NCBI RefSeq assembly: GCF_030705305.1
Contig: NZ_JAUZEE010000003.1
Location: 1 to 64,000, forward strand
Length of the DNA stretch: 64,000 nt
Direction of reading: 5' to 3'
Source: Leptothrix discophora
GTDB taxonomy: Bacteria; Pseudomonadota; Gammaproteobacteria; Burkholderiales; Burkholderiaceae_C
In this document: piece after piece, positions 42,034 to 46,459 of the stretch
Numbering within the stretch: the stretch's first letter is position 1
Layout: each line of letters starts with the position of its first letter
Program-made: the position numbers and the translations under genes
Notes under the pieces: generated by a model
Told to the model about the DNA's origin: nothing
What the model saw: only the letters and a program-made list of their open reading frames with translations
The model's database searches: none

Positions 42034-42069
42034 CCACAAAAGACTGGATGTTCATACAGTCTTTTGTGG
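42034..42069. promoter_or_regulatory. LexA (SOS) box inside a 36-bp near-perfect palindrome
   Basis: CTGGATGTTCATACAG (42044-42059) fits CTG-N10-CAG and shares CTGGAT....ATACAG with the box before lexA at 45692-45707. The symmetry extends outward: 13 bp on each side pair perfectly (42034-42046 with 42057-42069) and ATG/CAT pairs inside. It ends 14 bp before the ATG at 42084. The outer arms (AAAAGACTG...CAGTCTTTT) would also fold into a hairpin that might stop transcription from the ABC-F gene. Confidence 0.8.
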
Positions 42070-42083
42070 CAGACTGGCACGCC

Positions 42084-43394
42084 ATGAGCCGTGCCACTCC
42101 CCGCCGCGTCCAGCGCGCCCCCGAGCGTCTTGCCCCGCAGCGGCGCATCCCGCGCCAAGCTCGCGCACCGTTGCCGGAAGCGATCGACGGCCCGCCAGTT
42201 GACGCGCCTGCCGAGGTGGCTCACGCAGCCCAGGTCGCTGCGCCGGCCGGATCGCCGCTCGGCGCGCCGGTCGTCGCCCCGATCCGGCCGGTCGACGGCC
42301 CCAGCCTGGCGCTGTTCGATGCGCCCGATGCATCGACGTCCGGGCGGAACCGCCGCCGTGGCCGTCCACCCCGCCCCCCCGAGCAAGCCGCGCACGAGGA
42401 TGCCGCGGCCACCGATCCGGGCTGGCGCGAGCAGCCCTGGCCCGGCATCCGGCGACGCGGCGAGGCCGCCGAAGCGCCGGCAGCCTCGCCGGCCGTGGTG
42501 GTCCCCGAAACCTGCCTGAGCCTGCTGCGTGCCAACGACCGCCACGACCTGCCCTGCCCGCTGGTCGCCAACGCCTACCGCGTCGAGGCGGCGGCCGGCG
42601 ACGCGCCGGGCGGCCTGCGCATCCACGCCAAGGTCAACGCGCCCCAGCGCCTGCGCGAGGCGCTGCGCCGCCCCGGCCTGGTCGTCCGCCCGATCCAGCT
42701 GGGCACGCTGGCCGACCCCTACCTGCCGGTCGAACGCGAGCAGCGCCTGACCCGCGCGCTGCTGGAGGTGCTGGCCGAGGCGCGACACCCGGTCGGCCTG
42801 CTGACCGCGTCGCCCGCCGTCGTGCGCGACCTCGACCTGCTGGCCGGCCTGGCCGCACGCCGGCAGGCGGTCGTGCTGATGCGGCTGGCGCCTTCCAGCT
42901 GCCCGCTCGGGTGGACCGGCGAAGGCGACGTGCCGCCGGCGCGGTTGGCAGACGCTGTACCGACGCCCAAGCCCGCCGCCACGCGGGGCCGCCCGCGCAA
43001 GTCCACCGCGGACGTCCCTGGCGCGGCCCTGCGCCAACAGCTGGCCGCCAGCCTGTGGCTGCAGTCGCTGGCCCGGCTGGCGCGGGCCGGGATCCCGGTG
43101 GGCGTGCAACTGGACCTGGCCGCCGATGGCGTCGACGCCGCCGATCTGTTGCCGCCCGTCGCCGACCCGTCCCGGCGCGAGGCCTGGCTGGCGCTGTTCG
43201 CCCAGCTGCGCGCCGCCGGTGCGTGCTGCTGGCGTTGCAACCTGCCGGGCGAACGCCTGGACGATGCCCTGGCGCTGTCCGACCTGGCCGCGCAGGCTGG
43301 CCTGGGCAGCACGCTGCCGGCACTCGATGCGCGCCCCTTCGTCGCCCCCGCGGCCGTCGTCCCGGCCGGACCGCGGCAGGTCACCCTCTTTTGA
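42084..43394 (+). CDS. SOS-controlled PA0069/SplB-like protein lacking the radical SAM cysteines
   Basis: A 436-residue protein whose core reads like the PA0069 family of radical SAM proteins, relatives of DNA photoproduct lyase. Visible matches are Arg-Ala-Asn-Asp near 149 with Asn-Ala-Tyr-Arg at 163-166; His-Ala-Lys-Val-Asn-Ala near 181; Leu-Gly-Thr-Leu-Ala-Asp-Pro-Tyr-Leu-Pro-Val-Glu-Arg-Glu (206-219); Arg-Asp-Leu-Asp-Leu-Leu-Ala-Gly-Leu-Ala (248-257); and Ala-Gly-Ile-Pro-Val-Gly-Val (335-341). Where the family has its Cys-Glu-His-Gly-Cys-xx-Cys loop, just after Asn-Ala-Tyr-Arg, this protein has about 11 Ala/Gly residues and no Cys. The first 130 residues are low-complexity and basic. It ends in Gln-Val-Thr-Leu-Phe, like a sliding-clamp-binding peptide. 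The ATG at 42084 is used because the upstream ATG lies inside the LexA box. Function unknown. Confidence 0.75.
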   Translation: MSRATPRRVQRAPERLAPQRRIPRQARAPLPEAIDGPPVDAPAEVAHAAQVAAPAGSPLGAPVVAPIRPVDGPSLALFDAPDASTSGRNRRRGRPPRPPEQAAHEDAAATDPGWREQPWPGIRRRGEAAEAPAASPAVVVPETCLSLLRANDRHDLPCPLVANAYRVEAAAGDAPGGLRIHAKVNAPQRLREALRRPGLVVRPIQLGTLADPYLPVEREQRLTRALLEVLAEARHPVGLLTASPAVVRDLDLLAGLAARRQAVVLMRLAPSSCPLGWTGEGDVPPARLADAVPTPKPAATRGRPRKSTADVPGAALRQQLAASLWLQSLARLARAGIPVGVQLDLAADGVDAADLLPPVADPSRREAWLALFAQLRAAGACCWRCNLPGERLDDALALSDLAAQAGLGSTLPALDARPFVAPAAVVPAGPRQVTLF

Positions 43395-43404
43395 TGCCTG
43401 TTGA

Positions 43405-43439
43405 CTGACGCCTGACGCCTGACGCCTGACGCCAGACGC
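43405..43439. repeat. Tandem 7-bp repeat (CTGACGC)
   Basis: Four exact copies of CTGACGC followed by one CAGACGC run head to tail just after the stop of the preceding gene, and GGAC is repeated four times shortly downstream (about 43454-43469). This looks like a small slippage-prone intergenic repeat. There is no protein-coding role. Confidence 0.85.
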
Positions 43440-43500: not shown

Positions 43501-43527
43501 ATTGCGAACAATTCAATTGTTCGCAAT
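43501..43527. promoter_or_regulatory. OhrR operator (perfect palindrome)
   Basis: A perfect palindrome with 13-bp arms (ATTGCGAACAATT and its complement) around a single C. It contains the CAATT-N-AATTG core typical of OhrR-type MarR operators. It ends 13 bp before the ohrR ATG, so OhrR probably represses its own gene and ohr from here. Confidence 0.8.
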
Positions 43528-45691: not shown

Positions 45692-45707
45692 CTGGATAAA
45701 AATACAG
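45692..45707. promoter_or_regulatory. LexA (SOS) box between asparaginase gene and lexA
   Basis: CTGGATAAAAATACAG fits CTG-N10-CAG. A TTGTCA at 45675 followed 16 bp later by TAAAAA at 45697 could be the lexA -35/-10 pair, putting the box over the promoter as expected for autoregulation. The outer half-sites match the box at 42044-42059 exactly. Confidence 0.82.
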
Positions 45708-45769
45708 ATGCTGGATGAACAGCCAGTGCCCTCGCCAGCCGGCGTCGGGCGTGCAGCCGGCGAGGCCCC

Positions 45770-46459
45770 GTGAACGACAGCCCCAAATTGACCGCGCGAC
45801 AGCAGCAGGTTCTCGAACTGATCCAGAGCAGCATCGAGCGCACCGGCGCCCCGCCCACCCGGGCCGAGATCGCCGCCGAACTCGGCTTTCGGTCCGCCAA
45901 CGCCGCCGAGGAACACCTTCAGGCCCTGGCACGAAAGGGCGTCATCGAACTGCTCGGCGGCACCTCGCGAGGCATCCGTTTGCAGTCTGACACACTGCGC
46001 TCGATCCATGAATCGCGCCTCAAGGGCATCGGCCAGCAGTACAACCTGCCCCTCGCCGCACTGGCCCAGCTGAGCCTGCCACTGGTCGGCCGGGTGGCCG
46101 CTGGCCACCCCATCCTGGCCCAGGAACACGTCGACCAGACCTACACGGTCGAGGCCCACCTGTTCGCCCGCAAACCCGATTTCCTGCTGAAGGTGCGCGG
46201 CATGAGCATGCGCGACGCCGGCATCCTCGATGGCGACCTGCTCGCGGTGCAACGCGCCAGCGAGGCCAAGAACGGCCAGATCGTCGTGGCCCGGCTGGGT
46301 GACGAGGTGACGGTCAAGCGCTTCCGGCGCAGCAAGGCAGGCATCGAGCTGATCCCCGAGAACCCCGACTTCGACATCATCCACGTCGGCGACGACAGCC
46401 CCGAGTTCACGCTTGAGGGCCTGGCCGTCGGCCTCATCCGCAACACGATGCTGATGTAA
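45770..46459 (+). CDS. lexA: LexA repressor
   Basis: Represses DNA-damage genes until RecA filaments trigger self-cleavage. The 229-residue protein has the winged-helix DNA-binding domain (1-72) with [10 protein letters not shown], the Ala111-Gly112 cleavage site, and the catalytic Ser146 (Gly-Met-Ser-Met-Arg) and Lys183 (Val-Thr-Val-Lys-Arg). It starts with GTG at 45770. Its own SOS box lies 62 bp upstream, and a second box controls the gene at 42084. An imuA-imuB-dnaE2 cassette, often near lexA in this group, is not in the window. Confidence 0.97.

Follow-up and report, generated by a model that had tools for sequence, protein, structure and literature searches.

The locus analysed here raises the question of what remains of a radical-SAM-family gene that has kept a LexA box but no longer encodes the cysteines of its cluster site. 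The gene lies in a 64,000-nucleotide stretch of Leptothrix discophora DNA, referred to below as the window. The original prediction described its product as a repurposed DNA-damage protein rather than a dead enzyme. We examined its ancestry, its operator, its relatives, the selection acting on it and the short motifs at its two ends.

A PA0069-family paralog without the cluster site

The predicted reading frame of 436 codons proved to be intact, running on the forward strand from an ATG at 42084 to 43394 and ending in RQVTLF. A second in-frame ATG is found at 42048. Because this codon lies inside the LexA box, and because a TGA separates its counterpart from the start codon of the ortholog in Sphaerotilus mobilis, the ATG at 42084 is the likely start. 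The protein-coding features are as follows.

42084 to 43394, forward strand: Cys-less PA0069-family paralog (the B copy), 436 residues, ending in RQVTLF
42495 to 42893, forward strand: residues 138-270, with homology to the beginning of the canonical radical-SAM domain (hhalign)
42582 to 42614, forward strand: residues 167-177, the remnant at the site of the family's CxxxCxxC and loop (multiple alignments)

Against the NCBIfam model NF033668 (rSAM_PA0069), the window protein scored 82.4 bits with an E value of 2.9e-23 (80.9 bits in the comparison of genus copies), far under the curated cut-off of 360 bits. A profile of the window and S. mobilis proteins (the Cys-less pair) aligned with three canonical copies of the genus over residues 138-270 (hhalign, 99.6%, E 1.2e-23, 50% identity), and the proposed PA0069-like kinship is thereby borne out. 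Of the stretches on which the original prediction had based it, residues 142-166 and 178-260 fall within this alignment, whereas residues 331-343 lie outside it and are matched in the multiple alignments only. No Pfam family, including PF04055 (Radical SAM), was found in the window protein at E values up to 1; the canonical copy from the same genome scored 48.2 bits against PF04055 (cut-off 29.5). The SPL model was touched by one of the four other genus copies scanned, the B copy of genome G011 (E 0.32). Searches of solved structures with a 448-residue reading of the window gene and with the canonical copy returned no sequence match at E values up to 1.

In the multiple alignments, CxxxCxxC and most of the subsequent loop are gone after Asn-Ala-Tyr-Arg (residues 163-166) and before the next conserved stretch, leaving residues 167-177, in agreement with the predicted loss. 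The motif is missing from the window and S. mobilis copies; all 75 canonical rows have it, many of them having been selected on that basis. Furthermore, 54 of the 86 family-invariant positions (columns at least 95% constant across the 75 canonical rows) are lost in the window protein, including Lys in the TKS motif and Thr in TD. With so many of these positions lost and the profile alignment limited to residues 138-270, the comparisons do not demonstrate the conserved fold that was assumed earlier. Sequence comparison confirmed the window gene as a diverged duplicate of a PA0069-family radical SAM gene that lacks the cluster site. A frameshift or an assembly error is an unlikely origin of the missing cysteines, since the intact S. 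mobilis ortholog has the same Cys-less form.

Short tandem TGACGCC repeats (43404-43434) are located 3' of the stop codon. Further on, a perfect 13-bp inverted repeat (ATTGCGAACAATT/AATTGTTCGCAAT, 43501-43527) directly precedes a MarR-like gene, itself beside an Ohr-like gene, and looks like a putative operator of the MarR-like gene. Rfam listed no family at gathering scores within the 64-kb window.

LexA box and predicted SOS control

The regulatory features upstream of the window gene, together with lexA, are as follows.

42044 to 42059, forward strand: LexA box CTGGATGTTCATACAG, by pattern match, identical in S. mobilis
42034 to 42069, no strand assigned: 13-bp perfect dyad CCACAAAAGACTG-N10-CAGTCTTTTGTGG with the LexA box in its middle (as folded RNA, -20 kcal/mol, z -5.5)
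45770 to 46459, forward strand: lexA, named by sequence, with a LexA box at 45692-45707

Within the window, the pattern CTGKATNNNNATACAG matched twice, before the window gene and before lexA, and it did not match in 100 shuffles. Across the whole genome of 4.65 Mb it occurred in four places (lexA, imuA, the window gene and the canonical copy), and the reversed pattern, used as a control, occurred nowhere. The SOS box of the original prediction was thus found as a strong LexA box conserved in S. mobilis. The box of lexA (CTGGATAAAAATACAG) is similar to that of the window gene and not identical. A second CTG-N10-CAG site before lexA (45711-45726) was read by eye, and the box of the canonical copy is CTGTATATTCATACAG. 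The fourth match (G000, contig C22, 463828-463843, locus L136) is located 47 bases upstream of an ImuA gene, which was identified with NF033429 (164 bits, cut-off 150). Because of this position, the genome may encode an ImuA-ImuB-DnaE2 cassette.

The operator and dyad have the same letters in the window genome and S. mobilis. The dyad with its LexA box sits after an ABC-F gene, so one element could be both an operator and the terminator hairpin of the ABC-F transcript. A terminator scan that allows loops of up to 8 bases did not list the dyad, whose loop is 10 bases, and a simple scan found no sigma-70-like promoter.

Pseudomonas aeruginosa PA0069 itself is a member of the LexA regulon. By its promoter box, the window gene is a predicted member of the SOS (LexA) regulon as well, and LexA would be expected to bind there and to control its induction. 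When sites of the form CTG-N10-CAG that agree with a LexA consensus at 11 or more of its 16 positions were counted, LexA boxes were found upstream of seven of the nine B-type copies and all four canonical (A) copies; the boxes of G002 and G004 barely reach 11/16, and G001 and G005 have none. The copies in these last two genomes (L067 and L066) are related B-type copies that lack a recognisable LexA box, yet retain both the cysteines and QxxLF at the C terminus.

The original prediction knew of no described SOS system of this kind. However, SOS control of SplB-like genes has already been published: one study predicts it in alpha- and beta-Proteobacteria (PMC3323433), a study of Bacteroidetes calls it shown in several species (PMC8565304), and it appears in a third paper (PMC3765255). 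What is new at this locus is the loss of the cluster.

A graded series of copies in the genus

A canonical copy with CEHGCIYC is present on another contig of the same genome and scores 444.5 bits against the PA0069 family. The earlier reading of the window mentioned neither this second, Cys-bearing copy nor the clamp-like motif at the C terminus nor the graded erosion in relatives. Among 13 genomes of the genus, four carry a canonical and a B-type copy, five carry a single B-type copy and four have no family match. G004, one of the single-copy genomes, is 83% complete and may hold an unseen second copy; of those with no match, G003 is 94% and G006 68% complete.

Two of these genomes have the Cys-less form: that of the window and G007 (S. 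mobilis DSM 10617). The S. mobilis protein is 71% identical to the window protein, its gene has the same operator, and MarR-like and Ohr-like frames lie beside it. An ortholog that combines conserved Cys loss with a LexA box was therefore found in this one species, while the other seven B-type copies of the genus keep the cysteines. The B-type copy follows the same ABC-F gene in G007, G004, G009, G011 and G012, and in G001 it lies about 0.8 kb after that gene; no ABC-F gene was found within the DNA fetched for G002 and G005. G008 and G010, which have no family match, do have the ABC-F gene, and about 1.5 kb of sequence following it contains no B copy.

In a tree built from 34 rows, a branch supported at 100/99 had all nine B-type rows on the same side, including the G004 copy, which is classed as B-type by place and tree though its sequence is fully canonical. 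The branching order inside this side is less sure, given the long stem and odd composition of the Cys-less pair (2.97 changes per column on the stem, 0.10 and 0.45 on the tips). The bit scores of the B-type copies against the family model and the numbers of invariant columns that they keep, out of 86, are given below.

G004: 444.0 bits, 86 columns
G001: 294.1 bits, 70 columns
G005: 271.3 bits, 63 columns
G002: 228.5 bits, 61 columns
G009: 195.3 bits, 53 columns
G012: 160.2 bits, 48 columns
G011: 153.4 bits, 44 columns
Window gene: 80.9-82.4 bits, 32 columns
S. mobilis: 79.8 bits, 31 columns

The cysteines are kept in the first seven of these and lost in the last two. The constant Lys of TKS is replaced by Arg in six B-type copies and by Ala in the Cys-less pair. 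Both Cys-less copies coexist with an intact canonical copy, whereas the five single copies and the B copies of the other two two-copy genomes keep the cysteines. The loss thus occurs in two of four two-copy and none of five single-copy genomes, which is a suggestion only, because a form found in two species counts as one evolutionary event. The shortened loop after the cluster was considered as additional support and dropped: in G011 and G012 the loop of the B copy has 9 and 8 residues, respectively, compared with 22 in canonical copies, but it is also shortened in three single-copy genomes (15, 15 and 12 residues).

Outside the genus, no Cys-less ortholog was found among 399 genomes of the family (a sample that does not contain G007; best score outside the genus 82.9 bits) or 399 genomes of the order (best score outside the window's genome 89.6 bits); at most four candidates were scored per genome and part of the matches was read, and low-scoring independent losses could escape such a search. 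The Cys-less form is thus not general in Burkholderiales. The family itself is widespread, with 111 of 299 evenly sampled genomes of the phylum having a match over the cut-off. One apparent Cys-less copy outside the genus (L055 in G240) turned out to be a broken ordinary copy, its frame being interrupted just before a retained GCIYC. Plasmids gave matches in 20 records, all of them partial and below 80% coverage, and viral contigs contained relatives of the canonical copy at 21 loci and no match for the Cys-less pair. A search of genome contigs returned no match with the window protein alone as the query and, with the pair as the query, nothing other than S. mobilis.

Selection on the Cys-less pair

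Over 403 codons compared between the window gene and its S. mobilis ortholog, pS was 0.467 and pN 0.207 (Fisher p 5e-19), and dN/dS was 0.33 (NG86) or 0.155 (YN00), low as the original prediction had anticipated. The corresponding values for the canonical pair were 0.25 (NG86) and 0.05 (YN00), so the constraint on the B pair is the weaker one because its dN/dS is higher. In short windows along the B pair the two methods disagree (NG86 0.21-0.41, YN00 0.08-0.66). In the nucleotide alignment of the Cys-less pair, eight of ten gaps are multiples of three, and the remaining two span 10 and 11 bases. A dN/dS of about 0.16-0.33 argues against a pseudogene, which we judged unlikely in view of this purifying selection and the intact S. 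mobilis ortholog.

A slower form of decay was also considered, in which the canonical copy does the work and the duplicate erodes under weak selection with no function of its own. It would account for the weaker constraint just described, for the loss of invariant positions in grades across the genus and for a Cys-less form confined to two species, and it would fit the four of 13 genomes with no family match, two of which have no B copy within about 1.5 kb past the ABC-F gene. We regard it as unlikely, because pN is well under pS, the frame has stayed open in both species despite 10 gaps between the two proteins, and the operator, the N-terminal LxLF and the C-terminal QVTLF have all been kept. 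Moreover, the tree places the bulk of the change on the stem of the Cys-less pair, and the tips are shorter. Taken together, the ancestry, the loss of the cluster site, the SOS box and the intact, constrained frame make a repurposed protein more likely than a dead gene, as first proposed.

Clamp-binding-like motifs

The window protein has a C-terminal motif that resembles those of beta sliding clamp ligands, and a further short element in its N-terminal part.

43377 to 43391, forward strand: QVTLF, which matches the beta-clamp pattern Q-phi-x-[L/M]-[F/L] (sequence and family survey)
42303 to 42320, forward strand: SLALFD element, residues 74-79

The clamp-binding motif Q-phi-x-[L/M]-[F/L] is C-terminal in some clamp partners, according to a published account (PMC11139829). 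Among 87 distinct family members, which are best-scoring matches that include the B-type copies and not a random sample, Q-x-x-[LM]-[FL] forms the exact end of 80. Four of the other seven have the motif in the last 12 residues and three fail (L020, L021 and L101); in L101, QLSLF begins 15 residues from the end. As a control, 910 other mechanical ORFs, many of them not genes, were taken from the fetched DNA in all frames, and two of these end in the motif. One of the two, in L020, may itself derive from a family member whose end is broken. Among the 80 members with the exact tail, the Cys motif is absent by pattern in three: the window copy, the S. mobilis copy and the broken L055. The tail is kept in nine of nine B-type copies, including the QVTLF of the Cys-less pair. 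The canonical tails of the window species and S. mobilis (QHELF and QHDLF) fit the published clamp pattern less well. At the N terminus, LxLF was found in six of nine B-type copies and in none of 75 canonical rows, of which many long ones had been trimmed to the final 400 residues; this element lacks the Gln of the clamp motif.

By its tail, the window protein is a candidate beta-clamp ligand and would be expected to bind the clamp. To our knowledge, no published definition of the PA0069 family includes QxxLF. Among the open-licence papers listed by literature searches, none addresses a clamp motif of PA0069/SplB-like proteins or a Cys-less (cluster-less) family member, judging by the listings.

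A dominant-negative or regulatory binder that acts through DNA or the canonical copy alone, with a QxxLF tail that does not serve the clamp, seems improbable to us. A canonical copy for it to act on is present in both Cys-less genomes, and the conserved stretches of greatest length (residues 131-275) consist of radical-SAM-domain sequence and not tail, but the tail fits the clamp pattern, and all nine B-type copies retain it even though not all of them retain the cluster. That the four cysteines common to the Cys-less pair form a new metal or Fe-S site replacing the radical-SAM cluster is very improbable: the S. mobilis protein has exactly four Cys, all matched in the window protein (residues 144, 158, 273 and 385 of its six Cys) and in columns that hold Cys in 0/75 canonical rows in three cases and 3/75 in the fourth, but four shared Cys are unremarkable at 71% identity, and Cys 144 also occurs in six other B-type copies.

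Proposed role and comparison with known systems

The reading we prefer, whose chances we consider evenly poised, is that the window gene encodes a LexA-induced, clamp-tethered pseudoenzyme, logically like ImuB. An old PA0069-family duplicate would have lost the cluster loop, and very probably radical chemistry with it, while retaining LexA control, part of the barrel and the clamp-like C-terminal QxxLF. DNA damage would clear LexA from the operator, and the window protein and the canonical Cys-bearing copy would be made together. The window protein would then dock on the beta sliding clamp via QVTLF, perhaps also via the N-terminal SLALFD, and act there as a non-catalytic accessory or competitor that holds, positions or displaces the canonical copy or a translesion factor. 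We know of no tested function of the canonical family.

A more specific version, which we consider doubtful, is a two-armed ligand in which SLALFD and QVTLF bridge both clamp sites or two clamps and recruit or restrain the active PA0069 copy at stalled forks. If this were true, the whole PA0069 family, for which SOS control is predicted in many bacteria, would serve the SOS response as a repair or translesion module tethered to the clamp. The clamp-like tail in nearly all members examined leads to the prediction that PA0069-family proteins work at the replication clamp. With the cluster lost and the switch and tail kept, the window gene is a natural paralog that would separate a docking role from radical chemistry, and its relatives in the genus include intermediates between intact enzyme and pseudoenzyme.

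Compared with the spore photoproduct lyase SplB of Bacillus, the canonical copies are relatives within the radical-SAM superfamily, whereas the window protein, as described above, has no Pfam match. With the PA0069 family (NF033668, 'SplB-like'), the window protein shares kinship over residues 138-270, a LexA box directly upstream and the C-terminal QxxLF; it differs in lacking CxxxCxxC, in scoring below the family cut-off, and in having an N-terminal extension and a reduced C-terminal half of the domain. The closest parallel in logic is ImuB of the ImuA-ImuB-DnaE2 mutasome, which is described as an inactive relative of Y-family polymerases with a functional clamp motif that induced mutagenesis requires (PMC11791113). 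The two protein families are unrelated, and ImuB has known partners whereas the partner and the clamp binding of the window protein are predictions. Nevertheless, both are damage-induced (for the window gene, by prediction), and both have lost their catalytic residues and kept a clamp motif.
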